A program made the position numbers and the translations under genes. Below the pieces are notes generated by a model. It saw only the letters and a list, made by a program, of their open reading frames with translations, did not search any database and was not told where the DNA came from. Below are positions 2,162 through 57,918 of a stretch of DNA of 64,000 bases, one piece after another; positions within the stretch are counted from its first letter, which is position 1; each line of letters opens with the position of its first letter. Origin of the DNA: Hysterangium stoloniferum (taxonomy: Eukaryota; Basidiomycota; Agaricomycetes; Hysterangiales; Hysterangiaceae); contig WHVD01000001.1 of NCBI GenBank assembly GCA_015178975.1, forward strand, positions 1,674,001 to 1,738,000. The letters run 5' to 3'.

Positions 2162-3863
2162 TCAGAGAGAAGATAGTGGTCCGGGTTTGAGTGGGTAAGC
2201 TGTATGAAAGTCAGTAACGATTTCCATGGCATTACCGAGTTCCATGGCCAAAATCCATGAGGTTTCTTCATTAGTGCCCTCATAACCTGCCCACTTCATG
2301 AAGTAAAGCAGTTTACAAGTGCATCGACCCTTGTCAATTTTCGAATCTAAAATTTGTGAGATTTCAAACTCAGGTTCTCCGTCAATAATGACTGGAGGGG
2401 GTGGAAATTGCATGCGATCTGGGATAGTGTTAGCAGTACAAGGTTCTAGCATAGAAACATGAAATACCAGGTGTACCGCATGCATACTATCTGGAAGCTG
2501 TAGGGTCCAAGAGACTGAACCTACTTGTGTGATAATTTCAAACGGACCTAAATATTTTTCACCAAGCTTTTTTGATGGATGGGTAGTCTGAAAGAATTGA
2601 GCTTTGACAAAAACACGGTCACCAATCTTGAAGTTTGGTGGTGGAATCCGGTATTTGTCCACTGAATGTTGATATTGCTCTTGGGCAGACTTTATTGCAG
2701 TCTGGAGTTCCTCATGGAGCTCATAGAGGTCCATGGTGAACTCTTGAGTGTGAGCAGAGGCAATATTTTTTTCTGGATGTACTGTAATATTTGGATTGTA
2801 TCCTTTATTTGCAAAGAATGGGGAAATGCCAGTAGTGGCTGAGGGTGCATTGTTGTAAGCAAATTCTGCAAGTGGTAACAAGGATTTCCAATTGTCCTGT
2901 TGATAGTTGCAATACACGCGGAGATATTGTTCCAATGTCTGATTGACGTGTTCGGTTTGTCTGTCACCTTCCGGGTGATGTCTGGATGTGAAATGTAGTT
3001 TCATGTCCAAGAATTTCCTGAGGGATCTAAAGAAGTGAGACACAAACTCTGATCCTCGATCGGAAGTTATGTTGGATGGAACTCCGTGCTTGGAAAATAC
3101 GTGGATAATGAAAAGTTCCGCTAACTGCACGGACGTAATTGTATCACGTGTAGGGATGAATATACCTTGTTTTGAGAATCTGTCAACAACAACTAGAATG
3201 GCAGAAAAGCCTTCAGAATCCGGTAGGTGTTCAATGAAATCCATAGAGATAGAATTCCATGGGTGTTCCGGTACCGGGAGTTGTTTCAAAAGGCCATATG
3301 GCTTGTGTCGTTGAGATTTAGAGCGGGGACAAGTAGTGCAAGATTTACAATAGTGCTTAATGAATCCATGGAGTCTGGGCCAAGTATATTCTCTTCTTAT
3401 TAATGATAGAGTTTTGTTGTACCCAAAATGTCCTGAAAGTGAATGATCATGTTTGTATTGAAGGATCCTGAGGTGGAGGCTGTCGGAATCCAGTATATAG
3501 ATCCGATTGTCAAGTCTAATGAAACCATGCTCATCAAGAGACCACTGGGGTTGATCGGGGTCCACGGGATTGTCAAGGTGAGCTTTAATAATTGGGTCTA
3601 GTGGAATTGCTGATAGAATATCTTGATGTAACTTCTCAATATCCATAATGATAATTCCATGGACAATAGGATTGACGAGGAAAGTTGCACGGACTGATGC
3701 AGTAAGTTGCTGATTCGTGAAAATAGGTTTCAGGTTGTGTGGGTTTACTGTGGCATAGTCGTTGCTCCCCTCCTTAGGATAGACATCCCATTGTCTAGTT
3801 AAAGTGTCGGGTTTGCTGCTGAGATGGCCAGGTCGAAAATGGATAATCATATTGAAAGCAGAT
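2162..3863 (-). CDS. GypA pol C-terminus: integrase plus chromodomain
   Basis: An open stretch of about 567 codons on the minus strand. The apparent N-terminal MTYPSQ is read from the inserted GypB LTR; true GypA coding starts at 3858-3863. In order it has the end of the RNase H/connection region, an HHCC zinc-binding segment (ending CKSCTTC), and an integrase core with Asp in MDFIEHLP, Asp in TSDRGSEF and Glu in DRQTEHVNQ, so the D,D,E residues are present. The C-terminal chromodomain contains LLYFMKWAGYEG and EETSW. Integrase joins element cDNA to the host genome, and chromodomains of this family bind modified histones. The domain is uninterrupted although the rest of GypA pol is broken. 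Confidence 0.9.
3859..3863. repeat. Target site duplication of GypB (left)
   Basis: CAGAT directly before the GypB 5' LTR, identical to 14905-14909 directly after its 3' LTR. Confidence 0.95.
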
Positions 3864-4545
3864 TGTGAAGGATAAGTCATATAGGAGGTGCGGTTAAAGG
3901 CTCTAAGCCTTACTCCTTAACCGCTTTATAATCTCATTGTTCTCTTTATGTTCTATATTTTTATTCTATTTCTATATCTCATAAATATGGGTGAAACCCC
4001 CTTTATTTAGTTCGAGAGTCCATGTATGCTTGTGGGTGCTCTCGCCCACAAGAAGTATGCGCATGTCACAGGTAGTAGTCACACAGATAAAACTTAGACA
4101 CTTTTCAACCCTGACAACCATCACCTGCTCACGCAAGTACTGGTTCGGGGCCTAGTCTGAAACTAGTCTTCGCTTTATCTCTCTTACTATATCTACAGTA
4201 ACTACACTTTGCACTGAAACAGTCAAAGTCAGTTACTACCACTCGACTTGACTTCTACCTCTTGGTTCGCGCAGCAAGAATATCCATCGTAGTTCACATT
4301 CTTAGAATATTCTCTTTCCCTCACAATATATACTTTCTCTCCACTACTTGGCCGTTAGTCCAGCTAGCTACGCAATTGGACCGTACTGCAAGGTCAATCT
4401 GCTCTTGTAATTATTTACCGATTGCACCTTAAGGGTCAATCGTAATCTATACTTGATCACTTCAAACTACTAGTCGGTTGTATATTGTACTATCGTTAGT
4501 CGATAATGATCACACATTGAGTAGTAAACTACTCGACCCTTTACA
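3864..4545 (+). repeat. GypB 5' LTR (682 bp)
   Basis: TGTGAAGG...TTTACA, the same length as 14223-14904. The 14 differences between the two LTRs are mostly C/T or G/A at CpG positions. It is followed by GTGGTGATCCGGGCC at 4546, where the primer-binding site should lie; no tRNA match was tested. Confidence 0.95.
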
Positions 4546-11877: not shown

Positions 11878-12194
11878 TGACGGGTATATGCAGTTTCACC
11901 AAGAACCCGGAACCACTTCCCTCCCGAGAATGCAGTCTATTTCTTTCAATCTACTCGACAATCAACCCTAATTTTAACCTTTATTTTCTTTTTCTAAAAA
12001 TTCAACTTCAGCTACCTCGTCTTCACTCCATGATCACCAACCTTTGGTCTATCGCCTCCTTACCTCGTGTCAACAACCGAGCGGAGTCTTAATCCCTAGG
12101 ATACGAGAGACGTAAAGTCGCTTAAGAATCTCCAACCTCTCTTTACCTTCAACCACTACCATCACACAACTCTTGTGCGACCCGCAACTATAAC

Positions 12195-13805
12195 ATGTCC
12201 CAACCACCTCTCTCGAAGTCCAAATTCCCAAAGTTCAAAAGGATCCCACGAACACCTGCCACCAAGCATCTATGGAACCCTGCCTCCACTTCCTCGGGAC
12301 CACCTCGCACTGAAATAGTCGAGTGCCCTTTCTCTTACCATGAGGCCTCCGCCTCTAATTCCTCGAGCTATTCCTCGACACACTGGGGATCAACAGAGAC
12401 TGCCTCGAGAGCCGCTCACGATTCTCAAGGGCCACCTCGCACCGTAAGGGTTGAGACACTCACTCCTTGCAGCCAGGCCCCTCCCTCCAGATGTTGGGAC
12501 CTAAAGGACCTCCCTTGGGATGGACCCCCCATTCGACCATCCCCATCCCCCCCACCTGAGGAAGTAGCCCAGAAGTGTCGCGACAAGGAGGAGCGTCACA
12601 CCCAAAACCAACAAGAGCTCCAGGACCTTAAAAGAAAGAGGAGGGAGAAGTTCGTGCAAGATCGGTTAGCCAGGGGAGGAATGGAAGGCGTACCTTCAAA
12701 AGCCCAAAGGAGAGAGAGCAGGATGCGGGAGGGCTACGCCTCCATCCTACCAATTCTCCCTCCCCCAGGGAAGAAATGGACGGAATTTGTAGAGACCGAG
12801 GAGAGTGATAATGGAACCCCCTGCATACGTGCCGCTGGCGCTAAAAGCCAGAAAGGGAAGGATGGTACTACCTTTTATGATTGGGAATTAGTCAGACGGA
12901 TTAAACTCCAAAGTATCCAGCTAACCCGAGGAGATGAAAAGGAACCACCATCAGGGACCAACCCTCCTCAAGGACCAGGAGAGAAAAGGTTTCAGGTTGG
13001 CCCCACTGACCTCTCTTCAGAGTCGGAGGATAGTGATACCACCTATCCACAATACGGGGCAAAGTATCTGGGGGAGGACTCGTTCGAAGGGTTCTTACTA
13101 CCAAGACCCATACACTTTGTCTCTAGCGATCCAAATCAGAGAAGGGAACTTAAACCAACCGTCAGAATATGGCATGGGTATCGACCTGACAAGACCTCAA
13201 CCGGCATCGCCGCAGAAAACCCCGTTCCACCCTCTGCCACACCTCCCCCTTTACCCGTTCCCATCCTAGAGTTACAGGAACGTGAGCCACCACAGCTACG
13301 AGACTCCTCAGACCACCCCCCGAACCTTCTTTCTTCCATGCCTGCCACTACCCACGAGCTGTGGCCAGCTCCATACCAATCGGAACAGGCCTGCGACGTT
13401 GTAATGCTCGACCCTCATATCACTGAACCACCCTCCACGTCTATTCCCTCAGGCGAAAAAACCTACAGGACACAAAGAGTTTCCCATCCTATCGAGTCGG
13501 AGGTCCGGGAGACAGTGATAAGCAGGAATGAAGCTGACAGTGACATTTGGGTGCGAATAGCAATCAACTACCACTCAGCACATTTCACCGTCAGCAGGGT
13601 CCTGAGCCAGTTACTGCCCGCACTACAGCCACCCTTGCTGGAAGGGAAAGTAAGCGACTGCAAAGGACTTGCATCACTGGAAGAGACCATGGTCGACTTT
13701 TACCTGCTCATGAAAGACACAACAGAGGCGGAGAAGCATCGTTTCAGGAATCAAGCTGTCACCATTCAGACAGCTGTCCGCGAACTTCCCTTGCGCCCCT
13801 CCTGA
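12195..13805 (+). CDS. GypB accessory ORF (536 codons), unknown
   Basis: A long open frame downstream of pol on the same strand, with no stop in 536 codons although gag-pol next to it has ten. Pro/Ser-rich start, a basic Glu/Lys/Arg stretch around residues 130-180, an acidic and Pro-rich middle, and a helical end. No domain recognised. The ATG at 12195 follows a pyrimidine-rich leader (11960-12190), like a basidiomycete 5' UTR, so it may have its own promoter. Near 13790-13805 the coding potential passes to the +1 frame (next feature), suggesting one frameshift in an original protein of about 665 residues ending at 14196. Confidence 0.7.
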   Translation: MSQPPLSKSKFPKFKRIPRTPATKHLWNPASTSSGPPRTEIVECPFSYHEASASNSSSYSSTHWGSTETASRAAHDSQGPPRTVRVETLTPCSQAPPSRCWDLKDLPWDGPPIRPSPSPPPEEVAQKCRDKEERHTQNQQELQDLKRKRREKFVQDRLARGGMEGVPSKAQRRESRMREGYASILPILPPPGKKWTEFVETEESDNGTPCIRAAGAKSQKGKDGTTFYDWELVRRIKLQSIQLTRGDEKEPPSGTNPPQGPGEKRFQVGPTDLSSESEDSDTTYPQYGAKYLGEDSFEGFLLPRPIHFVSSDPNQRRELKPTVRIWHGYRPDKTSTGIAAENPVPPSATPPPLPVPILELQEREPPQLRDSSDHPPNLLSSMPATTHELWPAPYQSEQACDVVMLDPHITEPPSTSIPSGEKTYRTQRVSHPIESEVRETVISRNEADSDIWVRIAINYHSAHFTVSRVLSQLLPALQPPLLEGKVSDCKGLASLEETMVDFYLLMKDTTEAEKHRFRNQAVTIQTAVRELPLRPS

Positions 13806-14222: not shown

Positions 14223-14904
14223 TGTGAAGGATAAGTCATATAGGAGGTGCAGTTAAAGGCTCCAAGCCTTACTCCTTAACCGCTTTATAATCTCATTGTT
14301 CTCTTTATGTTCTATATTTTTATTCTATTTCTATATCTCATAAATATGGGTCAAACCCCCTTTATTTAGTCCGAGAGTCCATGTATGCTTGTGGGTGCTC
14401 TCGCCCACAAGAAGTATGCGCATGTCACAGGTAGTAGTCACACAGATAAAACTTAGACACTTTTCAACCCCGACAACCATCACCTGCTCACGCAAGTACT
14501 GGTTTGGGGCCTAGTCTGAAACTAGTCTTCGCTTTATCTCTCTTACTATATCTACAGTAACTACACTTTGCACTGAAACAGTCAAAGTCAGTTACTACCA
14601 CTCGACTTGACTTCTACCTCTTGGTTCGCGCAGCAAGAATATCCATCGTAGTTCACATTCTTAGAATATTCTCTCTCCCTCACAATATATACTTTCTCTC
14701 CGCTACTTGGCCGTTAGTCCAGCTAGCTACGCAATCGGACCGTACTGCAAGGTCGATCCGCTCTTGTAATTATTTACTGATTGCACCTTAAGGGTCAATC
14801 GTAATCTATACTTGATCACTTCAAACTACTAGTCGGTTGTATATCGTACTATCGTTAGTCGATAACGATCACACATTGAGTAGTAAACTACTCGACCCTT
14901 TACA
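14223..14904 (+). repeat. GypB 3' LTR (682 bp)
   Basis: TGTGAAGG...TTTACA, pair of 3864-4545. Preceded by GGGGGGGCA at 14213-14222 as a short purine-rich tract. Confidence 0.95.
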
Positions 14905-15732: not shown

Positions 15733-16770
15733 GGGAGGATAACCCAAAACTTTAAAAATTATTTATCCACTAAAGTATATATATTTATATTGTTTGTTGT
15801 AAAATTAATATTTAATCAAATTCAGTTGATTAGGTATCACTCTGAAGAATGCAAAAATATTAATATTTATCCTATATCTGACAAAATTTAGTCAAACAAT
15901 CATCTGTAGATTATTCTTTTGGAATAAATTGCACAATGGGGATTGGTACCCCAGATAGTTCTGGTTAACTCTCTAAACCAACTAAATTTAAATTATATGA
16001 AATATATTTGAAAGTTTGCTTGTATACAACAGAATACATCATAACCCAAAGATTAAGTCATAACCCAAATAATCTTGTTTAACCCAAATGATCTAGGTTA
16101 ACCCAAATGAGCTAGGTTAACCCAAATGATCTAGGTTAACCCAAATAATCTAGGTTAACCCAAATAATCTAGGTTAACCCAAATAATCTAGGTTAACCCA
16201 AATAATCTAGGTTAACCCAAATAATCTAGGTTAACCCAAATAATCTAGGTTAACCCAAATAATCTAGGTTAACCCAAATAATCTAGGTTAACCCAAATAA
16301 TCTAGGTTAACCCAAATAATCTAGGTTAACCCAAATAATCTAGGTTAACCCAAATAATCTAGGTTAACCCAAATAATCTAGGTTAACCCAAATAATCTAG
16401 GTTAACCCAAATAATCTAGGTTAACCCAAATAATCTAGGTTAACCCAAATAATCTAGGTTAACCCAAATAATCTAGGTTAACCCAAATAATCTAGGTTAA
16501 CCCAAATAATCTAGGTTAACCCAAATAATCTAGGTTAACCCAAATAATCTAGGTTAACCCAAATAATCTAGGTTAACCCAAATAATCTTGTGTAACTATG
16601 TCATTTGTGTGTATTTTAAAAAGGCATGCATATTTTAAAGATGAAATTTCAGGTAATTAAATATAAACTCATAGAATAAGTTGTCATGGCCAGAAGGAAT
16701 AGACTCACTTAGAAAATATGAGGATTATTCAGTAAAATTTTGTATATTCAATAAAGTGTGACCATCCTCC
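15733..16770. mobile_element. MITE-1: TA-flanked non-coding element with internal minisatellite
   Basis: The RT coding sequence of GypA is interrupted exactly here. TA is present on both sides (15731-15732 and 16771-16772), and removing the insert plus one TA restores the Glu-Trp-Leu-Val reading. Ends are GGGAGGATAA and, inverted, GGAGGATGG, a short imperfect terminal inverted repeat. No transposase. TA duplication suggests mobilisation by a Tc1/mariner-type enzyme, two of which are in this window. Confidence 0.78.
16062..16592 (+). repeat. 19-bp minisatellite, about 28 copies
   Basis: Tandem copies of AACCCAAATAATCTAGGTT. The first few units vary (GATC, GAGC, TTGTTT forms); the inner units are almost identical, which points to recent expansion. 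The related element at 48903-49410 has only about one unit. Confidence 0.97.
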
Positions 16771-19290: not shown

Positions 19291-20114
19291 TGTTAGGGTA
19301 CGTACATGGCAGGTCTCCAGAGAAACCCGCAGAATATCCAGTAGGACTTGGCTTCAGCTTATAGGCTACACCCTCGCGAGATCATGTTGTCCAATTTCAG
19401 ACAGGTGGATGGGAATCCCGGGAAGTCCAGGTTCATGGGTCAAGGGGTTGTAGGTTGGAGGTCGTGGGTCGAGAGGTCGTGAGTCGAGGTTGGTAAGAGA
19501 GATAGATATGCCGGAGCCCATGGGCTCCGACTAGCATGAGCGGTGAGATTCAAGTAGGAGTTTAGAGTGGAAAATGTATTAGGTTACTGGGGGGAATCTA
19601 AGCCAATTTTATGACTGGATTGTATGTACAACATCTGCCAGACTATATAGACCGTGGAATGCATGACATACTAAATCCAGTAATAATGAAATGAAACTAG
19701 CAAAACATAAAATGAGAATAGTAAACACCAAATTTGGTGTTAGGAATGGGATGGAATGGAGCGGAGTCCAAATTGTGACAAATCATAAACCATAACGGGA
19801 AATGGAGTGGGAGCATAGTCTGAATCATGACAGGTCATTTGACTAAAATGGGAATGGGGCTCTGTCAGAGGGATGATGGGTTTTCTGAGCGGGGTCCAGT
19901 AACTGATGTGTGGGACAAGGTTGGACATACTGTAGACAGGGATGGAGTCCAGTGGGTATTCCGGTGACTGAAACACAACATAACAAAGTCGAATGTAGAC
20001 AAGTCTGACGTACGGAGTCCGGCGGGAATTCTGGTAAACTGACAATTGGTGCGTATAGGGTGCGGGTGCGTATAAGTTAGTCCCCAGAGTCCCACAGGAA
20101 TTCCAGTTGTAACA
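19291..20114 (-). repeat. GypA 5' LTR (824 bp)
   Basis: TGTTAGGG...GTTGTAACA, pair of the partial LTR at 1-774. Termini are the inverted TGTTA/TAACA seen in most LTRs of this window. Contains the shared motif at 19343-19375. Confidence 0.92.
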
Positions 20115-35783: not shown

Positions 35784-36037
35784 TGTTAAGTGCCGTGTCA
35801 GGAACTTATTCTGGAACTATCAGAAAGTCACTGGGAAGTCAGAAACTATCAGATAGGGTTAGGACATTGGCTTCAGCTTATGTGCTGTGCCTCTACGCAA
35901 ATGCTCAGAGACTTACAATGGAAGATACAAATATTCAGAGTTCCGAATATTGAGCATACAGAAAGATGGAAGAGGGAATAAGAAACTAAGTCAATATCAG
36001 ATCTAAAGTAAAGTACAAATTTGTGGAAACTAATATA

Positions 36038-37627
36038 CAGTGAGGGACAAAACCCTTCCAATGATTTTTAGTTGTGCAAAGATTCTTGAATAACTCAAGA
36101 ACCACTGTAGATACAAACCTGAAATTTGGTGGTTGGTTAGGTCTACATGTTATCTATATGCCCTTAAAATATTATGACATAAGCATTAGTATTTCCCACA
36201 CTATATATAAAATAATAATAAAATGACATTGGAAGGGTTTTGTCCCAGTCACATGATTAACACAAAACCTTATTGATTATCAGCAAATAAGGTTTTGTTT
36301 AATCATGTGACCTGTCAAAATTAGATATATATATAGCTGTTCACTTTTTAGTTCAACAACATCCCCACAACTCAACATTCTACACCATGAAAGCTCTTAC
36401 TCCTCCTCAGGTTGTCACATTCTCATTTTGCTCAATAAGGGCAAGTCTACTTCTCAGATCTCTGCAATCACTGGCAGAGATCTGTTTACTATATCCAGAA
36501 TTCACTTTACCCATTGCCCATCACTTGCCAAAGCACCTGGTGGCCATCCATGCAAGCTTTCTCCCTCAGATATTCATTATTCCCTCTAACAAATCACTTC
36601 TCAGAAGGCAGAACATGCCACTGAGGTGACCAAAATCCTTCAAAATATGACTGGAGAGTCCATTTCAGTGAAGACTGTTCATAGAGCACTCAAAAAGGCT
36701 GGAATGAGGGCTGTGGTGGAGAGAAAAGGCCTTTACTCACTAAGAGGCATAGGAAGGCAAGGATGGACTCTGCTCTGGCACACAAGGACTGGACTGTGGA
36801 TGATTGGAAGAGGGCTGTTTGGTTAGATGAGACAAAAATCAATTGTTTCGAGTCAGATGAGAGGAAGTAGGTGTAGAAAAGGGCAGGAGAGGGGCTCAGT
36901 GATAGGGTGGCTGAGGGTACAATCAGGTTTGGAGGAGGAAATCTGATGTTGTGAGGCTGTATGTTGTGGGAAGGACCAGGATATTCCACCAAAATTGATG
37001 GAAGGATGGATGCTGACCTTTATGTTAGCATTATGGAAGATGAACTTCAAGAAATCATGGAGTATTATGGCAAGAACACAGGGGATGTGGTCTTTCAGCA
37101 AGACAATGACCCCAAACACAAGAGCAAAAAGGCCACCAATTGGTTTAAAGACAATGGATTTGTGGTCATGGTATGGCCACCTCAGTCTGCTAACCTTAAT
37201 CCAATTGAACACCTCTGGTATTACCTCAAAAGGAGGCTGGGTGGCACCCAAGAGTATTCATGAGTTGTGGGAGAGGTTCAGACAGAGTGGGAGAAGATCC
37301 CTGCCTCTACTTGTCAGAACTTGATAGAGAGTATGCCTAGAAGGGTTGAGACTGTTTTGAAGGCCAAGGGAGGCTATACCAAGTACTAGAATGTTTAATT
37401 TGCATTTTTTTTATACCAGGGACAAAACCCTTCCAATGTGATTTTATTAGTGTTTTATTTATAGTGTGGGAAATACTAATGCTGATGTCATAATATTTTA
37501 AGGGCATATAGATAACATATAAACCTAACCAACCTCCAAATTTCAGGTCTGTATCTACAGTAGTTCTTGAGTTATTCAAGAATCTTTGCACAACTAAAAA
37601 TCATTGGAAGGGTTTTGTCCCTCACTG
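36038..37627 (+). mobile_element. Tc1/mariner-like transposon 1 (degenerate)
   Basis: 1590 bp, flanked by TA on both sides (36036-36037, 37628-37629). Terminal inverted repeats of about 209 bp (36038-36246 and 37419-37627). Each arm begins and ends with the same 20-bp block in opposite orientations (36044-36063, 36227-36246, 37419-37438, 37602-37621). Confidence 0.92.
36387..37263 (+). pseudogene. Tc1-like transposase, broken
   Basis: Met at 36387 (MKALTPPQ) followed by frame changes. Helix-turn-helix remnants (HRALKKAGMRAVVERKG), then a longer open part 36961-37263 with MLWEGPGYSTKIDGRMD, the second catalytic Asp in FQQDNDPKH and the Glu in NPIEHLW, 34 residues apart, hence a DD34E enzyme of Tc1 type. 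The first Asp region survives as WLDETKIN at 36822-36845. At least three frameshifts or stops; not functional. Confidence 0.85.
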
Positions 37628-38017
37628 TAAGTCTTCTCGTTGTTGTACTACAAACTGAGACCATAATAAGACGGAAATAGGAGTATTTTTAAAACAGGGA
37701 TACAATAAGACATATCGGGGAGACAATATTCCGAAACGGGAATATAATAGACAAATGATTGAATACTTGTCAACGGACAAATTACCAAATGCAGAACAAG
37801 GGAAGAATGCGGAAGATATGGTAACTATGATGTTCCATAGTCAGAGGTCAGAAGTCAGATATTGAAACATCCAGGAACGGGTCGTAACAGTACCCCCCTG
37901 TTAGGCTGAAGTCCCATAGAGGCGATTAGGTACTGAGTGATTGAAGTGACGGCTGATTGTTATGTGTTGTGAAATTTACACAATTCTGGAGGTGAGAGTT
38001 TTGGCTGCTGTCCTGAG

Positions 38018-38025
38018 TATAAAAA
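38018..38025 (+). promoter_or_regulatory. TATA box of the antisense gene in GypC
   Basis: TATAAAAA, 49 bp upstream of the ATG at 38074, in the same relative place as in the GypA and GypE copies. Confidence 0.65.
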
Positions 38026-38073
38026 CCTCCAAATATTCAAATTAATGTTTTTGTTTCTTTATCCACAACTTGC

Positions 38074-39210
38074 ATGTCGATTTGTCGGCCATTGTTCAAC
38101 ACTACCCCGGAAGATTCAGACGCCGAAATTGCCATACTTCAAAAAATGTCGAAGGTCACAGAACTTCAACAAAAATGACAGAGGATGGAGGAGATAAAGC
38201 GATGACAAGAGGAGGAGGAAAAGACATTGATGCGGGAGTTGAAGGAGGTGTAGGAGGCGGAAAAATGGGAGTTGGAGCGAGTGAAGGTGGAAAAGGAGGC
38301 ATGGATATGGAAGATGGCGGAGGTTCAGAGGAAGAGAGAAGAGGTGGAAAGACAACAGTGGGAGTCTGAGGTGGCGGAAAAATGTAAGGAGATAAGGGAA
38401 GGAAAGGTAAGTCTAAACCATAAGTTTCTGTGTTTTTCATCCGATAACTATTGGGCACAGCAAAAAGCCGTGGAGGTGGAGGTAGAGGGAGAGGCTGGGC
38501 CTTCGAGTCCCAAAGTAAGTGCTGTTTGCAAAAGGTCGGTAGTTGATTAACTTCTGAAACAGAAACAAAATGTCAAGGCTCCGGAACGGATGGAAGTCAT
38601 CCACGACAGTCCGTGTTATCGATGTTCAATTCGGAATATGACGTGTTGGAAACAGAAGGTAAAATGGGGCAGAACTTGCTATCCCTGCGTGGTTCTCAAA
38701 CTTCCATGCACTCTCGCCATGAAAAGGGTTCCGAAAGGTGAGAAGGCTCAGAAAAATAATGACACAGAAAGTTTGGGAGTGACCAAAATTGCGGAAACTG
38801 AAGTGCCGAATATAAATTGTACGGGCATCGAACTCCTCAACGATACCGTCAATGCGTTGGTTTTTATCGGAACAGAACTTATGAAAATGCAGGATGCACT
38901 GGAGCACCATAATGACATCCAAGAAAAGGGTTTCCGTTCGTTGACCCGGAATTTCTGGAGGCAAAACGACTTTCTGGAGAAGGTAATGGTTAGCATCAGT
39001 ATTATTGCAGTTTCTGAGAGGTTTTCCGATAAGGCAAGGGAGCAGCCAAATGATCCATTGGTGGAATGTGTCGAGAAAAGGTGGGAGTTAGGAAAGGGGC
39101 CAGAAAGTGAAGATGAAGAAGTGCAGGATATGGTGGAAAGTGCAGAGATTGCGGATGATACGGGAGTTGAAGTGGAAGGAGGATTTGGGGTGTCAGAAAC
39201 GTTAAAATAG
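38074..39210 (+). CDS. Antisense Zn(II)2Cys6-type gene carried by GypC
   Basis: Best copy of the antisense gene. Exon 1 38074-38406, intron 1 38407-38460 (GTAAGT...ACAG), exon 2 38461-38514, intron 2 38515-38562 (GTAAGT...ACAG), exon 3 38563-39210. All joints keep one frame; total 345 codons. Exon 1 encodes a Glu/Lys/Arg-rich coiled coil, with two TGA and one TAG in it. Exon 2 is acidic (VEVEVEGEAGP). Exon 3 has six Cys at 38614-38709 spaced C-x2-C-x6-C-x10-C-x2-C-x6-C, as in the fungal Zn2Cys6 DNA-binding cluster, followed by Lys/Arg residues, a helical segment and an acidic tail (PESEDEEVQDMVE). It lies between pol and the 3' LTR, convergent to pol. A DNA-binding regulator is the natural inference. 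Confidence 0.75.
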
Positions 39211-39302: not shown

Positions 39303-39491
39303 TTAGAGTGAGGATAAAGGTCTGGGTTTGCTCGGATAGGCTGTGTGGAAGTCAGTAACAATTTCCATAGTGTGTCCAAGTTCCGTGGCCAATATCCATG
39401 AAGTTTCCTTGTTGGTTCCTTCATAACCTGCCCATTTGAATAAATAGAGCAATTTACAAGTATGTTGGTGATTGTTGATTTTAGAATCCAA
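39303..39491 (-). pseudogene. GypC chromodomain
   Basis: Minus-strand frame with KLLYLFKWAGYEGTNKETSW and the same C-terminus as GypA (HTAYPSKPRPLSSL). Separated by frame changes from the integrase. Confidence 0.85.
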
Positions 39492-39630
39492 AATTTCAGA
39501 AACTTCAAATTCAGGTTCTCTGTCAATGATGACTGGAGGGGGCGGAGGTTGAATACATTCCAGGATTTTGTTAGGAACACAGGGTTCTAATGTGGAAGAC
39601 AGGGTGGACTGCTCGCATACTATCGGGAAG

Positions 39631-40870
39631 TCAGAGAGTCCATGAGAGTGAACCAGCTTGTGCTATAATTTCAAAAGGGCCTAAGAATTTCTCAGCGAGT
39701 TTTTTAGAAGGTTGGGTGGTATGGAAGAATTGAGCTTTTACAAAAACCTGATCACCAATTTTACAATTAGGAGGTGGGATCCTGTTTTTGTCCATGGAAC
39801 ATTGGTAATATTCCTGGGTGGAAGAAATAGCTTTCCGAAGTTCTTGATGTAATTCGTCGAGGTCGGTAATAAATTCTTGAGCACGGACAGAGGCCAAATA
39901 TCATTCGGAATGTACTGTGAGATTCGGGTTGTAGCCCTTGTTGGCGAAAAAAGGAGAGATGCCAGTAGTTGCATTTGGAGAGTTATTGTAGGTGAATTCC
40001 ACGATCGGAAGAAGGGATTTCCAGTTGTCCTGTTGATAATTGCAATAGATGCAGAGATATTGTTCCAATGTTTGATTAACACGTTCTGTTTGTCCATCAC
40101 CTTCCGGGTGATATCCTGAGGTGAAGTGTAGTTTCATGTCGAGGGCTTTTCTGAGGGCCTGGAAGAAATAGGAGATGAACTTGGAGCCTCGATCAGAAGT
40201 TATGTGAGATGGAACACCATGTTTGGAAAATACATGAATAATGAAAAGTTCCGCTAATTGTAAGGACGTGATTGTATCATGAGTGGGTATGAAAATGCCT
40301 TGTTTCGAGAATTGATCCACAACAACTAGAATGGATGTAAAGCCTTCAGATGTCGGAAGTTACTCGATAAAATCCATGGAAATTGAGTTCCAGGGTTTTT
40401 CCAGTATTGGGAGTTGCTTGAGAAGGCTGTATGGCTTATGCCTCTGGGTTTTAGAGTGTAAGCAGGTGGTGCATGACTTACAGAACTGGGTTAAGAAATA
40501 TCGGAGGTTGGGCCAAGTATATTCTCTACAGATTAGACCAAGAGTATTGTTAATGCCGTAATGTTCGGAGATTGGGTGATTGTGTTTGTACTGAAGTATG
40601 TGGAGTCGGAGATTGTTGGAATCTGGAACGTAGATATGTCCATCGAGATGGATAAAACCTTGAGAGTCCTGTGACCATCAGGGTTGGTCGGGATTATTGG
40701 GAACTTCTAGATGTGGCTTGAGAGCCGGATCGGAAGTGAGTGTGGAAAGGATATCTTGATGTAATTGTTCAATGTCCATGATCATTATGCTATGCATAAT
40801 TGGATAGTAGAGGGAAGTCACTCGAATAGATGTGGAAAGTTGTTGCATTGTAAAAACCGGTTTCAAGTTA
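39631..40870 (-). pseudogene. GypC integrase
   Basis: ORF 39901-40320 holds the core (FSKQGIFIPTHDT, HITSDRGSKFISYFF, DGQTERVNQTLEQY), with the last two catalytic residues present. ORF 39631-39897 continues to the C-terminal region (RIPPPNCKIGDQVFVKAQFF). ORF 40678-40866 is the segment before the zinc finger (IMIMDIEQLHQDIL). Stops and frameshifts lie between them. Confidence 0.85.
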
Positions 40871-41007
40871 TGCAGATTAACAACAGTGTAGTTACTTTTC
40901 CCCTCTTTAGGATAGACATCCCATCATCGAGTCATGGCATCTGGTTTTCCACCAAGGTGTCCGGGTCAGAAACGGATCATCATGTTGAAAGCAGAAAGGA
41001 ATTCAGA

Positions 41008-41550
41008 CTAGTGGGCTTGCCGGTGGGTCAAAAGTTTAGTGGTAGAAAAATATTTGAGATTTTTGTGATCGGTAACAACATCAATGGGAGTTGCGGAACC
41101 TTTGAGATAATGATGCCAATGTTTGAAAGCCTCAAAAATAGCCAAAAGTTCCTCATCATGAATGTCATAGTTGAGTTTGGACACTTTCAGTGTCCGAGAA
41201 AGGAATGTGACCGGATGAATGTCACCGTCAGAATCTTGAATGGAAAGAATTGTGGCAATTGCATAATCAGAAGCATCAGTTTCCACAATAATCGGAACAT
41301 CAGGTTTCCAATGGGAAAGAATCGGGACAGAAGTGAAAGCATTTTTCAAAGTCTGGAAAGCGGAGCGGCATTTGTCATCAAAGACCAATGGTTGAGTTTT
41401 ACAGGTAAGGCGAGTAAGTGGTATTGTAATATCTGAGTAATTCTGAATAAAATGATGGTAAAACTTGGCGAAACCTAAAAATGACTGAATATCCTTGACT
41501 TTCCGTGGTTCAGGCCAATCATGGACAACTTGAACCTTCGTTTCATCCAT
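41008..41550 (-). pseudogene. GypC RNase H and end of RT
   Basis: 180-codon ORF from MDETKVQVVHDWPEPRK through FLGFAKFYHHFIQNY to TDASDYAIATI and VVTDHKNLKYF, ending QAH as in GypA. Its first part is duplicated at 41562-41938. Confidence 0.88.
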
Positions 41551-41938
41551 ACGGAGACCCTCAGTGTCCGAGCAAGGAATGTGACCAGATGAATGTCACC
41601 ATCAGAATCTTGAATGGAAAGAATTGCGGCAATTGCATAATCAGAAGCATCGGTTTCCACAATAATCAGAACATCAGGTTTCCAATGGGAAAGAATCAGG
41701 GCAGAAGTGAAAGCATTTTTCAAAGTCTGGAAAGCAGAGTGGCATTTGTCATCAAAGACCCATGGGTGAGTTTTACAGGTAAGATGAGTAAGTGGTATTG
41801 TAATATCTGAGTAATTCTGAATAAAACAACAGTAAAACTTGGCGAAACCTAAAAATGACTGAATATCCTTGACTTTCCGTGGTTTGGGCCAATCACGGAC
41901 AACTTGAACCTTCGTTTCATCCATACAGAGACCCTCAG
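41188..41938 (-). repeat. Tandem duplication, 374-bp unit, within RT/RNase H
   Basis: 41191 onward and 41565 onward repeat the same order of sequence with a spacing of 374 bp and several per cent divergence; the junction falls at TCAG in both. 374 is not a multiple of three, so the duplication shifts the frame and would by itself break pol. Confidence 0.93.
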
Positions 41939-42194
41939 GTCCGATAATGAAACCTAAGTATTCAATAGAATCCATGTCAAGGTAACATTTTTTACCATTG
42001 GCGAAAAGACCGTTTTTGCGGAGTCTTTGGAAGACTTCACGGACTTGTTCATCGTGAAGAGCGGGATCCTCAGAGAATACCAAAATGTTGTCCAAATAGA
42101 CTATAACACATACGTCAAGCATGTCAGAAAATATATCGTTAACAAAACGTTGAAAAGCGGAAGGGGCGTTGGTAAGGCCGAACGGCATAACCAA
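41475..42194 (-). pseudogene. GypC reverse transcriptase with altered catalytic motif
   Basis: 239-codon ORF: MPFGLTNAPSAFQRF, VIVYLDNILVFS, EYLGFIIGP, then the duplicated RNase H start. The catalytic Tyr-Leu-Asp-Asp is Tyr-Leu-Asp-Asn here (plus-strand GTTGTCCAAATA around 42087), which should abolish polymerase activity. GypA has the normal motif. Confidence 0.88.
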
Positions 42195-42254
42195 CCATTC
42201 AAAGGATCCATAGTGAGTCCGAAAAGCAGTTTTCCATTCATCGCCCTTGGCAAT

Positions 42255-43213
42255 TCAGACCAAATGATAGGCGTGTTTGAGGTCTATTTTGGTGTAGATC
42301 CGAGCTTTCTGTGGGGCATTGAGTAGATCGGTAACGAGTGGAAGTGGATACTTATCTTTCTGTGTGATGGAATTTAATTCTCTGAAATCGACACAGAGTT
42401 GAAGGGAGCCATCCTTCTTTCTGACGAAAAGGATGGGTGCTCTGTACGGAGACTTTGAGGGATGGATAAAACCTATCGACAGATGTTCATCCAGGAACTC
42501 CCAAATAGACAAAAGTTCCGATTGGGATAATGGGTAAATAGGTCCTAACGGAGGGTTTGAACCGGGCTCAATATCAATTTTTAAGTCGTAGGGCCTATGT
42601 GGTGCAAGCCAGTCAGCTTTTTGCTTACTGAAAATGTCCACAAAATCATGGTATTTTTCGGGAACTCCTTCCAGGTCGGCTTTTAGCTTGGATAGTTCTG
42701 GAGTTGCAAAATGTCCAGATGCTTCATCAACTTTTAAACTGATCGAAAAACACTGCGAACCATCCAGTTTACTCGCCCTAACAAATGCTGAAGCGTTGAT
42801 GAGAGAGATTTTTGGAGGCACAAAGGTTTTGGTAGAAGCTGGAGGTGCCGTTGAGGCTGAAAAGGCTTTGGCCAGAAGAGATGCTGCAGGAGGAATGGAA
42901 GTGCTGGGAATCTGGAAATTAATACTGCCCAATACCCAGTCAATCAACGGATTATATCGGGTGAGCCAGTTGTATCCAAGAACTACCAAACAGCTAGAGT
43001 CCAACTGTGTTACGAAAAAAGTAACCATCTGGGATGTTCCACACGGAACCGGATAGACATGTCACAGGCTTGGGTAATTTCCGTATTGCTAGTGCTGTCA
43101 AACAGACGCAAAGAAATTGTGGGAACAGAATGGAGTTTCAGATTATGTTTCATGGCAAAGGTGGTATCTACAAAACAGTGTGTGGAGCCGGAATCTATCA
43201 GAGCTCGGAACAC
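42255..43213 (-). pseudogene. GypC protease and RT N-terminus
   Basis: ORF 43010-43213 carries the retropepsin site ALIDSGSTHCFVD intact. ORF 42255-43028 carries VVLGYNWLTRYNPLIDW, a Pro/Ala/Ser linker, and the RT start (YDLKIDIEPGSNPP, FVRKKDGSLQLCVDF, YTKIDLKHAYHLV). They overlap in different frames by one indel. Confidence 0.87.
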
Positions 43214-43515
43214 TAAATTTCCAAGAAGGTCAGAGACAAGTTTTACAAATAATGAATCAGGGTTAGAGAGAGCAGATGCGTTGAGACAGATAATCTCAGA
43301 AACAGGGAGAGAGTCAACACAACCCTCTGTCTGTGCAGATTCCGGAGGGTTGCTTACTCTTTTTTTGACTCCGTGGTGGGTTTTTCCTTAGACATCATAG
43401 TCATGGTGGAAGTTGCTGCGTGGGCCTTGGAAGAGCTATATTTAATGGTACAGTCAGAAACCTTGTGTCTGCCTTTCCCGCAGAAAAGGCAGAGGTCATT
43501 GTCCATACATTGTTG
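43214..43515 (-). pseudogene. GypC gag C-terminus with zinc knuckle
   Basis: CCHC knuckle at 43450-43491 (CLFCGKGRHKVSDC, spacing 2-4-4). Gag N-terminus missing: the sequence switches at about 43515 to an LTR family C fragment. Confidence 0.8.
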
Positions 43516-43709
43516 ATGGAAATAGGAGTATTTCTAAAATGGGAATACAATGAGACATATTGGGGAGACAATATTCTGAAACGGGAATATAATAGACAAA
43601 CAAGTGAATACTTGTCAATGGACGAATTACCAAATGCGGAACAAGGGAAGAATGCGGAAGATACGGTAACTATGATGTTCCATAGTCAGAGGTCGGAAGT
43701 CGGATATTG
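43516..43709 (-). repeat. LTR family C fragment joined to GypC gag
   Basis: GGAAATAGGAGTATTT to GTCGGATATTGA closely matches 37670-37865 inside the GypC 3' LTR, in the same orientation. It lacks both LTR ends, so it is a recombination or deletion product, not a normal 5' LTR. Confidence 0.85.
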
Positions 43710-44071
43710 AATCTACATAGTTAAAAATTCTCCACATGTCTTCAAAATTCAGGCCATTCTGGTTGAAGAACAGGTGTCCATGCTAGAGCTTGTTGGCTGT
43801 GGCTGACATTTGTGCTGCAGAGATGAGACAGAATTTAGATGGCCAATGTGCTGAAGCTGTTAGGAGAGGATTTTTGGCCCTGCAGTGTGCCTCCACTGCC
43901 TGTACATAACTGTTTTGAGTGTTTGGCTGTAGAAAGTGATGCTCCTTTACAACAGGCCTCCCTCAGACCAATGTCAGACATGCTTATCCCCAATCTTTCT
44001 AAAACTCAAGCAAAGGAACCCCAAGTCAGAAAACCTTGTTGGGAGTAAAAATTACCAGGCCCATTTGTCAT

Positions 44072-49868: not shown

Positions 49869-51471
49869 CAGTGACTTACAAAATGTATCCAATGTTTTGT
49901 AGTTTCAGCTTATATATGCTATATCCCAGTAGATAAAATAGTAGAAATCACCAAACTATTTGTGAACATGACCAATCATGTATATATTTATATGGTAGAA
50001 CTATATTATGTAATATCCATATATGGAAACACTATGAATATTTTAATGGAGAGGGTTCATTGGATACGTTTTGTAACTGACAGGTTCTGGCATGAAAACC
50101 ATGTTCCTATGTTGATTGTTTGCATTTGTTTATGTTTTTCAACATGTCATGTGATCATTCTATACAACAGTATGAGTAGAAGGGCTTTCTCAGCTAAGAT
50201 TCCCTCAATTCTAACTATGCATCCCCTTTCCACTGCTGCCCAGTATGAGATTCTTTCTCTACTTGATGCTGGCCATTCTGCCAGACATATTTCAGTTTCT
50301 ACTGGCTATAGTTATGCTACTATCTCTAGACTTCGTTCTAAACACCGTTCCCACCTTTCTAAGTCCTCTGGTGGTCGTCCTTCCAAACTCTCCACAGCCA
50401 ACATCCGTTTTGCACAACGCCTTATCAGCTCTGGAAAGGCTGATACAGCTGTAGATGCAACAAAGGCACTTTGCACTATCACCAACCAGTCACTCAACCC
50501 TCAAACAGTGCGTCATGGACTCAAGGCAGCTGGGATGAAGCCTGTGGTAAAGAAGAAAAGGCCTCTTCTTTCTAAGAGGCATAGGAAGGAGAGGATGGAT
50601 TTTGCTTTGGCACATCAGGATTGGACTGTGGAGGATTGGAAGAAGGTGGTGTGGTCTGATGAGACCAAAATTAATAGGCTGGGGTCAGATGGCAGGAAGT
50701 GGGTGTGGAAAAAGGCAGGGGAGGGCTTGAGTGACAGACTGGTTGAGGGAACCCTGACGTTTGGTGGTGGATCTTTAATGGTTTGGGGGTGCATGCTGTG
50801 GGAGGGGGTTGGGTATGCATACAAGATTGATGGAAGGATGGATGGGGATCTCTACATCCAGATTCTGGAGGATGACCTGCAAGCCAGTCTTAAGGACTAT
50901 GGTAAATCTGCCAATGGTATCATCTTCCAGCAGGACAATGACCCCAAGCATACCTGCAAGAAGGCCCAGAATTGGTTCCAAGAAAATGGTTTCAGGGTTC
51001 TCTCATGGCCAGCACAGTCTCCTGACTTGAATCCCATTGAACACCTATGGAATCACTTGAAGAGGAGGTTGGCAGGGTATGAGAATGCACCCCAGGGGAT
51101 GGAAGAGTTGTGGGAGAGGGTGGTGGATGAATGATACAGGATTGATGCAAAGGTGTGTCAGGATTTGATTGAAAGTATGCCTAGGAGGGTTTCAGATGTA
51201 TTAAAGGCAAAGGGTGGCTACACTAAGTACTGAATACTAGTAATTTCCTGTCTAAATGTGTCAGTTACAAATGTATCCAATGAACCCTCTCCATTGAAAT
51301 ATTCATAGTGTTGCCATATATGGATATTACATAATATAGTTCTACCGTATAAGTATATACATGATTGGTCATGTTCACAAATAGTTTGGTGATTTCTACT
51401 ATTTTATCTACTGGGATATAGCATATATAAACTGAAACTACAAAACATTGGATACATTTTGTAAGTCACTG
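49869..51471 (+). mobile_element. Tc1/mariner-like transposon 2 (nearly intact)
   Basis: 1603 bp, flanked by TA (49867-49868, 51472-51473). Terminal inverted repeats of about 213 bp with very few mismatches (49869-50082 and 51259-51471). Each arm again starts and ends with inverted copies of one 19-bp block (49876-49894, 50058-50075 on the left). Confidence 0.95.
50172..51134 (+). CDS. Tc1-like DD34E transposase (one premature stop near the end)
   Basis: Start chosen at the ATG 50172 (MSRRAFSAK); upstream in-frame Met codons lie in the terminal repeat. About 320 residues: an N-terminal helix-turn-helix (ILSLLDAGHSARHISVSTG), a second DNA-binding part with GGRPSK, the catalytic Asp in VWSDETKIN, the GGGSLMVWGC motif, Asp in FQQDNDPKH and Glu in NPIEHLW, 34 residues after the second Asp. 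TGA 51132-51134 cuts the last 33 codons; the frame continues to TGA 51231-51233 with IESMPRRVSDVLKAKGG, the usual end of the family. All catalytic residues remain, so the truncated enzyme could be partly active or the TGA could be a single recent mutation. Confidence 0.9.
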   Translation: MSRRAFSAKIPSILTMHPLSTAAQYEILSLLDAGHSARHISVSTGYSYATISRLRSKHRSHLSKSSGGRPSKLSTANIRFAQRLISSGKADTAVDATKALCTITNQSLNPQTVRHGLKAAGMKPVVKKKRPLLSKRHRKERMDFALAHQDWTVEDWKKVVWSDETKINRLGSDGRKWVWKKAGEGLSDRLVEGTLTFGGGSLMVWGCMLWEGVGYAYKIDGRMDGDLYIQILEDDLQASLKDYGKSANGIIFQQDNDPKHTCKKAQNWFQENGFRVLSWPAQSPDLNPIEHLWNHLKRRLAGYENAPQGMEELWERVVDE

Positions 51472-55634: not shown

Positions 55635-56863
55635 TCAGCAGGCATCCACAATTTTGTCTATGAGGGTTTCTTCAGACCCATCTTCAGTGACAACAATCCC
55701 TGGGCAGAGGAGTTCTCGATTGGGAAAAAGGGAAGCGTTATTTGGAATGAATGGCTTGAGGAGGCTGGCATGGAAGCCTGGGTATGCCGTGGGGTTGTTA
55801 GGGAGCCGCAGGGTATACACTTATTTTTCCGGGAATGACTGGGTGATTTCATAGGGACCATCAAAATGGGGCATGAATTTGGCAACCTGTTTCCCTGTTT
55901 CTTGCCTTTGCATTTGTAGTTCTGACAATGGTGTGTGGTGGACAACATGACCAAATCCCCAACTTGGTATGCTTTCTCAGCAGCACAATGGTTATTGGCA
56001 TGATAGGCTTGACAGATTTTGGCAGCAGTAAGGTTGTCCTGCACTTCCTGGACATCTGACTCTAGGCAGTGGAGGAGTTCGTGAGCAGAGATCTCAGCCG
56101 GGGTTGCATCTGCCCGGACTGGTGCAAGGGGGGGAATGATGCGGGGAGAACGGCCAGTCTTCAGTTGGAAGGGAGAGAACCCTGTCGATACATTCACTGT
56201 ATTCATCATTGTGAAATGTACCTGTGGTAATTGTGCCATCCAGCCCTTCTGGTTAATGTCAACATGGTATCATATCAGTTGGTTGAAGGTTTTATTTGTC
56301 CACTCACTGGACCTGTCGCTCTGTGGGTGATATGCCATGGACATTTTCAATTTTACCCCAGATAATTTGTGTAAGGCAGCCCAGAGTTCAGATGTAAATA
56401 GAGGATCACGATCAGAAACAATGTGAAGCATAAGGCCATTCTCACAGTACCATTTGTCAAAAAGGACCACAGCAATCTGTGCAGCCATGTATGAAGAGTG
56501 AACAGGGCGGATGTCTGCCCCCAGGGTGTCGGTCATTTTCATGACCATATCCTTTCCATTTTCTTCTGGGAGAGGTCCAATGAAATCAATGGCAACCGTG
56601 TCAAAATGGCCATCTGGGACTGGCAAGGGGTGTAGAGGCCCACTAGGGGTGCTTGTCCGGTCCTTGTTGCATTGACATTCAGTGCAGGAGGGTATGTATG
56701 CCAGTTCTAGGTCTCTCCACATGTTTGGCCAGTAGTAGGAGTGGCGGAGTGACTCATAGCTCCTGTAAAAGCCAAAATGGCCAAGGGTGTCATGCGCTAG
56801 GTGGTAGAGTGTCTCCCGAATGTGAGTATCCCGAGGAATCACAAGTCGCTGCCCAATATACAA
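55635..56863 (-). pseudogene. GypF integrase
   Basis: ORF 56270-56863 has the HHCC zinc domain (HDTLGHFG to CTECQ) and core: VAIDFIGPLP, HIVSDRDPLFTS and SSEWTNKTFNQ, with D, D and E present. ORF 55658-56239 is the C-terminal part (FHTMMN-type joint, FQLKTGRSPRIIPP, YQVGDLVMLSTTHH). One frame change separates them. Confidence 0.87.
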
Positions 56864-57858
56864 AAGGCCTGAGTCCTGTCATGCCCCTGGATGCTTCCTG
56901 CAGCTATATCACAGGCCAGTTGCTTGCAGAAGGTATCAGTGAGGTAACCTTGTCGGATCATCTCCAGCAAGGAGGGGTCAGCTGTAATGCTGAGTGTCCC
57001 ACCAGCGATCCTTTTAGGTGGGGAACGGGTGTATGCCAATGCACAGGCAGCGTGCATCGCGTTAGGACTGCAATCCGGCATGTGGGACAGGGCATCTGCA
57101 ACAGTGTTATCTTCCCCTCGGATGTAAATGATATCAAAATCGAAATCCGCAAGGTACATAGACCAGTGCATCTGACGTCGGGACATGTCTTTCTGGGACT
57201 GGAAGTATTCCAGGGTCCAGTGGTCAGTGTAGATCTCAAAATGGCATCCAAGCAGGCTAGTGCGCCACTTCTTAAGTGGTTTAATAATGGCTAACAGCTC
57301 CTTCTCATGTACAGGGTAGTTTTCCTCTGCCTGGTTAAGCTGGTATGAGTCATAAGCAACAGGCCACACAGTGGCCCAATCCTTTCCAAAGCTGAGCATG
57401 GCACCTGTGAGCCTGTCACTGGCATCAGTAGTGAGGAAGATCTTATTGCTTGGGTCATCATAATCCATAATTGTAAGACAGTCAACACTGGTGACCAACT
57501 GCTTAATGGCAACAAAGGCCTGTTGGTGCGCTGTGGTCCAAGTGGGGAATTGTCGGTCACACTCCTTTGTGGTGAGTGGGGTCAGGGCACTGGTATGCTC
57601 TGCCAGGGCAGGAAAGAAGGCTGAAATATAACGTGTCAAGCCTAGGAAGCCACGAACATTAGTGGCAGTTGTTGGCTGAGGCCAATTAATGATGCGCTCA
57701 GTCTTGCGAGGGTCAGGATGGATTCCTGTGGAAGAGATGTGGTGTCCCAGGAAGGAGATCTCCATGGCAAAGAGAGTTGACTTGGCTGGGTTGCAATATA
57801 GTTGGGCTGCACAAAGTGCCTGCAGAACAGCTGTGTCATTACATTCATGTTCCTCCAA
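56839..57858 (-). pseudogene. GypF RNase H and end of RT
   Basis: 339-codon ORF; upstream in the same frame lies HVYLDDIIIWS (57860-57905), the catalytic RT motif. Then EISFLGHHIS, GFLGLTRYISAFF, TTDASDRLTGAM, HEKELLAIIKPL and YTDHWTLEYFQ. A TGA at about 57918 (where related elements would have Arg) separates it from the RT part before it. Confidence 0.88.
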
Positions 57859-57918
57859 GGTTTTCGACCATATGATTATATCATCTAGGTAAACATGGCA
57901 GATTTTGCCCAGTAGGTG

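Follow-up and report, generated by a model that had tools for sequence, protein, structure and literature searches.

An antisense gene with two predicted introns, encoding a six-cysteine protein, in two Ty3/gypsy families of Hysterangium stoloniferum

Results

Architecture of the antisense gene

The window analysed was a 64,000-nt stretch of the Hysterangium stoloniferum assembly (Agaricomycetes, Hysterangiales; 111 Mb in 554 contigs). At positions 38018-39210 it carries a gene of three exons on the plus strand, opposite to the pol gene of a Ty3/gypsy element and between pol and the 3' LTR. A TATA box (TATAAAAA, 38018-38025, +), recognised in an alignment of copies, lies 56 nt 5' of the ATG at 38074. 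Exon 1 (38074-38406, +) encodes a charged, helix-prone, coiled-coil-like N-terminal part and is followed by predicted intron 1 (38407-38460, +; 54 nt, GTAAGT...CACAG), a short acidic exon 2 (38461-38514, +), predicted intron 2 (38515-38562, +; 48 nt, GTAAGT...AACAG) and exon 3 (38563-39210, +), which encodes a basic Cys6 part, a long helix and an acidic C-terminus and ends with TAG. All exons are in phase 0, and both introns, which were located by comparison of copies, are of the GT-AG type with GTAAGT donors and CAG acceptors. Joining exon 2 to exon 3 forms a lysine-rich block resembling a nuclear localisation signal, and the six cysteines of exon 3 are spaced C-x2-C-x6-C-x10-C-x2-C-x6-C (38614-38709, +). 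The gene and pol stand tail to tail about 90 nt apart, the pol stop codon being at 39303-39305.

The initial annotation had listed the TATA box, the two short introns, the coiled-coil-like exon, the acidic exon and the cysteine cluster; all are present in the window sequence, the introns as predictions, and the coordinates confirmed the placement opposite to pol and before the 3' LTR. That description was accurate except that it left out three in-frame stops in exon 1, which make the window copy a pseudogene.

The host element

The pol region of the element (39303-43514, -) is degraded and contains reverse transcriptase (RT), RNase H, integrase and a chromodomain-like end, together with the 3' end of gag bearing a CCHC knuckle. 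In this first family the gag knuckle, RT, integrase and chromodomain were recognised by eye; the integrase identified by Pfam is that of the second family described below. The 3' LTR is in two pieces, 35784-36035 (-), which starts with TGTTAAGTGCCG as in copy L009, and 37629-37889 (-), directly upstream of the antisense gene promoter. A Tc1/mariner-like element (36036-37629) with 211-nt inverted ends that are 95% complementary was inserted in the LTR and splits it. Where the element is truncated on its 5' side, with most of gag missing, an LTR fragment remains (43515-43711, -). Elsewhere in the window there is a second Tc1-type transposase frame (49878-51131, +; DDE_3 and HTH_Tnp_Tc3_2). Within pol, a 300-nt RT stretch is doubled at 41179-41852 with a spacing of 374 nt and 93% identity, and in relatives such as L009 both pieces map to one place.

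Five elements with mutually matching LTRs span 6.6-8.0 kb, the LTR match being 480-569 nt in four of them and 339 nt in L013. LTR ends of the form TGTT...TAACA were found in L009, L011 and L025. A 5-bp duplication is present at both flanks of L009 (ATGTC) and L011 (TAAAC), and none was seen in L025. A purine run adjoins the 3' LTR in the five copies compared. With these LTR ends, purine run and duplications, a gag gene, the order RT-integrase and a chromodomain, the host element is a Ty3/gypsy chromovirus.

Copies in the genome and linkage to the element

A DNA search with exon 3 gave at least 40 places, with identities of 85-100% and the window copy among them (349 loose candidates). Twenty copies (L009-L028) were picked by their exon 3 match and aligned with the window copy to give 21 rows. 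The GT donor and AG acceptor of intron 2 are kept in all 21 rows; for intron 1 the donor is GT in 19 rows and GC in two, and the acceptor is AG in 19. The ATG is kept in all 20 rows that cover it. Of the 20 rows that span the TATA box, window included, 19 read TATAAAAA and one reads TCTAAAAA; L016 lacks this region. L025 gave the sole complete spliced frame among the 21 rows, with 344 codons.

We spliced 15 more loci from other subfamilies, namely L029 and L030 (top exon 3 matches) and L041-L053 (hand-picked, mostly rows with few stops). Twelve were fully open (343-347 aa), and a TATA box was found at -55 to -57 in all 15. The introns of these loci measured 47-54 nt; their splice sites were those that agreed best with L025, GTAAGT donors being given a bonus, and are not independent proof of splicing. 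In total, 13 of 36 copies spliced in silico were fully open (343-347 aa), with two phase 0 GT-AG introns of 47-54 nt and six cysteines, a fraction that is not a frequency, as the 36 copies were chosen by match and not randomly.

To avoid choosing copies by the antisense gene itself, a second search was anchored in the chromodomain end of pol, and its best 40 matches were considered. In 20 of them (window included) an exon 3 match lay at an offset of 162-186 nt, and the gene was also present in all of the first seven by rank among the other 20. It was thus found in 27 of the 27 pol copies examined among the best 40 matches, and so belongs to the element. The earlier proposal that a Ty3/gypsy element carries the gene holds on this count, and the carrier is the family and not the window copy alone. 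As a coding region antisense to the element and located between pol and the 3' LTR in these 27 copies (27/27 examined of the best 40), the gene agrees in layout with the aORF-3R class.

Selection on the protein

Ratios of dN/dS were calculated for the 13 intact copies (78 pairs, not independent of one another), with medians taken over pairs with dS > 0.05. The window copy, the stop-bearing L030, L041 and L053 and, from L009-L028, the 19 copies that were not intact were left out. The annotated frame gave a median dN/dS of 0.22, and the 12 most diverged pairs (dS 0.62-0.82) gave 0.13-0.22. On the same columns, the two shifted frames had medians of 1.28 and 1.05, and the three reverse-strand frames 1.02, 0.30 and 1.35. 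The value of 0.30 belongs to the mirror frame, which has the third codon position in common with the annotated frame and in which a low ratio is expected; this frame contains 2-5 stops within exon 3 in 13 of 13 copies.

Among 12 copies (66 pairs), divergence per site was 0.21 and 0.25 in the two introns, 0.32 at synonymous sites (dS), 0.075 at nonsynonymous sites (dN) and 0.063 in the 130 nt upstream of the ATG. Intron divergence falls only slightly short of that at synonymous sites. Indels relative to the window copy were counted in 20 copies; those with a length divisible by three made up 10/14 in exon 1, 2/3 in exon 2, 3/8 in exon 3 and 0/35 in the introns. This makes a weak argument, because the fetched copies are mostly pseudogenes and a single window-specific base accounts for all 20 cases in intron 1. 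The dN/dS values show that a protein read from this strand, with the introns left out, has been under selection. Taken with the kept frame and splice sites, the median of 0.22 bears out the reading of this region as a coding gene that has two predicted introns and runs antisense to a Ty3/gypsy element.

A second family with the same gene

The window begins with an element of a second family (1-20114), with LTRs at 1-774 and about 19343-20114. Its plus strand carries, from integrase to the 3' LTR, a gene of the same architecture with all exons in phase 0. The TATA box is at 929 and the ATG at 988; exon 1 (988-1293, +) is open in this copy and is followed by predicted intron 1 (1294-1344, +), exon 2 (1345-1401, +), predicted intron 2 (1402-1450, +) and exon 3 (1451-1945, +; decayed here, its end approximate), which carries C-x2-C-x6-C-x9-C-x2-C-x6-C. 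The integrase (2162-3916, -) contains a Tf2-1-like SH3 domain according to Pfam, with a weak chromodomain match (E 0.004) below the cut-off.

The integrases of the two families are 69% identical over 493 residues and the antisense proteins 29% identical. Intron positions and phase match between the families, and their Cys6 parts align by profile comparison (E 2.3e-8). Both families have the block GKRKA.EVE.E at the exon 1-2 junction and SP.KK at the exon 2-3 junction. Five second-family copies were fetched. Splicing by eye gave a complete 294-codon frame in L054, and the exon 3 sequences of all five have dN/dS of 0.10-0.28 (10 pairs). The second family has at least 150 loci. Among the matches listed, 21 are stop-free and have an identical score of 269 bits (E 1.0e-78), which points to recent copies. 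No such antisense gene was seen in the third gypsy element of the window (55658-57918).

Several other observations were made on second-family copies. Many lie within a few kb of contig starts. A subtelomeric preference was rejected, as 0 of 11 TTAGGG matches lay at a contig start; assembly breaks at repeats are the likelier source of the clustering. In the window copy, a 300-nt direct duplicate (3864-4163 and 14223-14522, 98%), far longer than a usual target duplication, surrounds a nested plus-strand gypsy-type element, and a 19-nt tandem repeat array lies inside the pol region (15909-16729). After the likely integrase of the nested element there is a 559-aa open frame in the sense direction (12126-13805, +), possibly an additional ORF of another kind.

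Features of the protein

Over both families the protein is about 294-347 aa long. Beyond the first residues, E, K, R, Q and A make up 71-82% of exon 1 and proline and glycine are nearly absent, a composition that points to a coiled-coil-like region or a single helix. Splicing of exon 2 to exon 3 would create KKPKVK or KKARK, which we take to be like a classical nuclear signal. In four proteins, the net charge of the first 60 exon 3 residues (the Cys6 part) is +7 to +8 and that of the last 50 residues -12 to -14. An alignment of 13 exon 3 sequences (eight of the first family and five of the second) has all six cysteines unchanged, with a middle spacing of x10 in the first family and x9 in the second.

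Zn(II)2Cys6 proteins follow the spacing CX2CX6CX5-12CX2CX6-8C, and the cluster agrees with it in both families. The Pfam profile PF00172 did not extend to the protein: a search with the L025 protein gave no match at E<=10, and the best value, in one of four family members, was E 4.2. No antisense copy was seen among the 83 genomic PF00172 matches when these were checked by eye against the listed matches to the antisense gene. The assignment to the Zn(II)2Cys6 type in the initial annotation therefore stands for the spacing of the cysteines but not for the domain model, and since PF00172 was not reached we call the cluster a Zn(II)2Cys6-like motif by spacing.

The structure predictions that the initial annotation had proposed were informative on the helices but not on the cysteines. 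AlphaFold models (mean pLDDT 53.7 and 58.6, pTM 0.26) had confident long helices after the Cys part, at exon 3 residues 84-160 and 68-119, and little else; the Cys region had pLDDT below or near 50 in models that contain no zinc. A fold search gave no match at E<=0.001 and three at E above 5. PDB searches by sequence gave no match in one case and, in another, two matches (E 0.38 and 0.99) that were taken as chance. No middle homology region was identified by Pfam.

Relatives in databases and gene models

A protein search with the 344-aa first-family protein found no match among 7144 candidates. The second-family protein matched two H. stoloniferum gene models only (7998 scored, part of the candidates), and a four-row alignment one such model only (7992 scored, part of the candidates). 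Low-complexity helix words probably fill the candidate lists, and with this partial scoring the searches do not establish an absence of homologues elsewhere. A scan of IMG/VR gave 93 pattern matches, 0 of them confirmed. In Agaricomycete proteomes there are unnamed proteins that carry a comparable pair of CX2CX6C units, which could mean that the gene is widespread.

The two gene models, P0001 and P0002 (BU17DRAFT_80596 and BU17DRAFT_86143), each cover a piece of the antisense gene and stand in public annotation as hypothetical proteins of the host. In P0002, exons 1 and 2 of the second-family gene are joined at the identical junction, though this model may be an unsupported prediction.

Discussion

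Retroelement genes that are carried in the element RNA lose their introns in every round. For the gene described here the genomic RNA of the element is the opposite strand, on which the introns would not be recognised and would survive reverse transcription; they would persist for that reason. An intron-containing gene kept in two diverged LTR families implies selection on its strand, its promoter and its protein. We infer that the gene is transcribed from its own promoter and spliced in the cell.

Antisense genes in LTR elements are already known from plants and from Botrytis. The gene brtn of the Boty-like Ty3/gypsy elements of Botrytis cinerea (Zhao et al. 2011, Virology, as cited in PMC7264820, PMC8365987 and PMC4227169) is, like the H. 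stoloniferum gene, antisense in a fungal Ty3/gypsy element with a chromodomain. Its host is an ascomycete, and the comparison of the two genes made here is one of layout. With brtn reported in 2011, the statement in the initial annotation that such an arrangement was not known in fungi was too strong, going by these citing papers (PMC7264820, PMC8365987, PMC4227169). In plants, antisense additional ORFs of the aORF-3R class are described for maize Grande, rice RIRE2 and Silene Retand, the last with a TRP28 domain; according to the accounts in PMC11963269 and PMC7264820, a role in DNA binding or regulation is so far a proposal. They share with our gene the antisense strand, the place between pol and the 3' LTR, the presence in most copies and the proposed role as DNA-binding or nuclear regulators; they differ in that their hosts are plant elements, Retand being a non-chromovirus, and in having TRP28, not Cys6. 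The word "intron" has 0 occurrences in the main texts of PMC11963269 and PMC7264820, and the latter asks for spliced antisense transcripts to be looked for. Among the titles and abstract openings listed from the open-access literature, no intron-containing antisense gene was seen in a basidiomycete LTR element. Within that literature, the conserved introns and the Cys6 protein in a basidiomycete element look new.

Two further systems offer a comparison for the protein. HBZ of HTLV-1 is a nuclear coiled-coil regulator with an acidic part, expressed antisense from the 3' LTR end and spliced. By analogy, its layout is comparable to that of an antisense gene read from the 3' LTR end in H. stoloniferum; HBZ is a bZIP protein, not Cys6, of an animal retrovirus, and no sequence relation is claimed. 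Fungal Zn(II)2Cys6 factors (PF00172) resemble our protein in their six-cysteine spacing, basic Cys part, nearby helix and acidic tail, but here the Cys part is in the middle of the protein and the PF00172 model was not reached. HBZ is also named in PMC11963269.

From the sequence features, the reading that we favour, with confidence about evenly balanced, is an element-encoded nuclear DNA-binding regulator expressed from an antisense promoter. The gene would be transcribed from an integrated copy, starting at its own TATA promoter beside the LTR, and its RNA spliced. The protein would then be imported to the nucleus and dimerise through its helices, and the Cys6 part would bind zinc and DNA. 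It may regulate the element itself, most likely LTR transcription or the balance of sense and antisense expression. A more specific version, which we put forward tentatively as possible but short of an even prospect, is that the antisense strand of fungal chromoviruses of this lineage encodes a transcription factor of the zinc-cluster kind, made from spliced RNA. It would bind the LTR or promoter region of its own family and so adjust sense (gag-pol) against antisense transcription. It would be similar to HBZ but independently evolved in fungi from a fungus-type DNA-binding module, and the introns might double as a safeguard, as only the antisense RNA could be spliced.

The main rival explanation is an accessory protein of the retrotransposition cycle, for example a cofactor of nuclear import or integration targeting that keeps the pre-integration complex attached to chromatin, or else a factor that binds RNA for export or packaging; RNA or protein would then be the ligand of the Cys6 part. 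Such a role would suit a gene present in every examined copy (27 of the best 40 pol matches) of one chromovirus lineage, a protein that diverges faster (29% identity) than the integrase (69%) and a Cys part not recognised as a DNA-binding Zn_clus domain. However, a separate TATA promoter does not couple the gene to the sense RNA. An acidic tail, a basic Cys6 part and helices are moreover the usual layout of transcription activators, which the protein resembles. We consider an accessory role rather unlikely, though a serious candidate.

Capture of a host Zn(II)2Cys6-like gene by an ancestral element, leaving a selfish passenger or a gene of benefit to the host that acts on host promoters, appears improbable. 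The introns and own promoter do look like those of a captured genomic gene, and the host genome has PF00172 genes (83 matches). Yet no host relative outside elements was met, in searches not designed for that question, and selection persists across copies of two families; capture would in any case explain the origin of the gene and not its present function.

A function of the antisense RNA alone, through double-stranded RNA or interference with sense transcription and with the open frame incidental, seems very improbable. The convergent arrangement with pol would fit it, and PMC7264820 discusses antisense non-coding RNAs of Drosophila micropia and TART as well as a role of double-stranded RNA. 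Against this, dN/dS of 0.10-0.28 in two families and six invariant cysteines show selection on a protein, and this constraint disfavours RNA as the sole function. Chance open frames in a degraded region, to which the three exon 1 stops of the window copy might point, are refuted by intact copies under purifying selection, in which frame, splice sites, TATA box and cysteines are kept.

Such element genes may enter public annotation as host genes, as in the two H. stoloniferum models that are pieces of this one, and a warning is warranted. If the protein controls its element, as the favoured reading of a DNA-binding regulator would have it, fungi would have a simple equivalent of the antisense regulators known from human T-cell leukaemia viruses. 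This would also offer a route to understanding why, in plants, fungi and retroviruses alike, antisense genes turn up again and again between pol and the 3' LTR.
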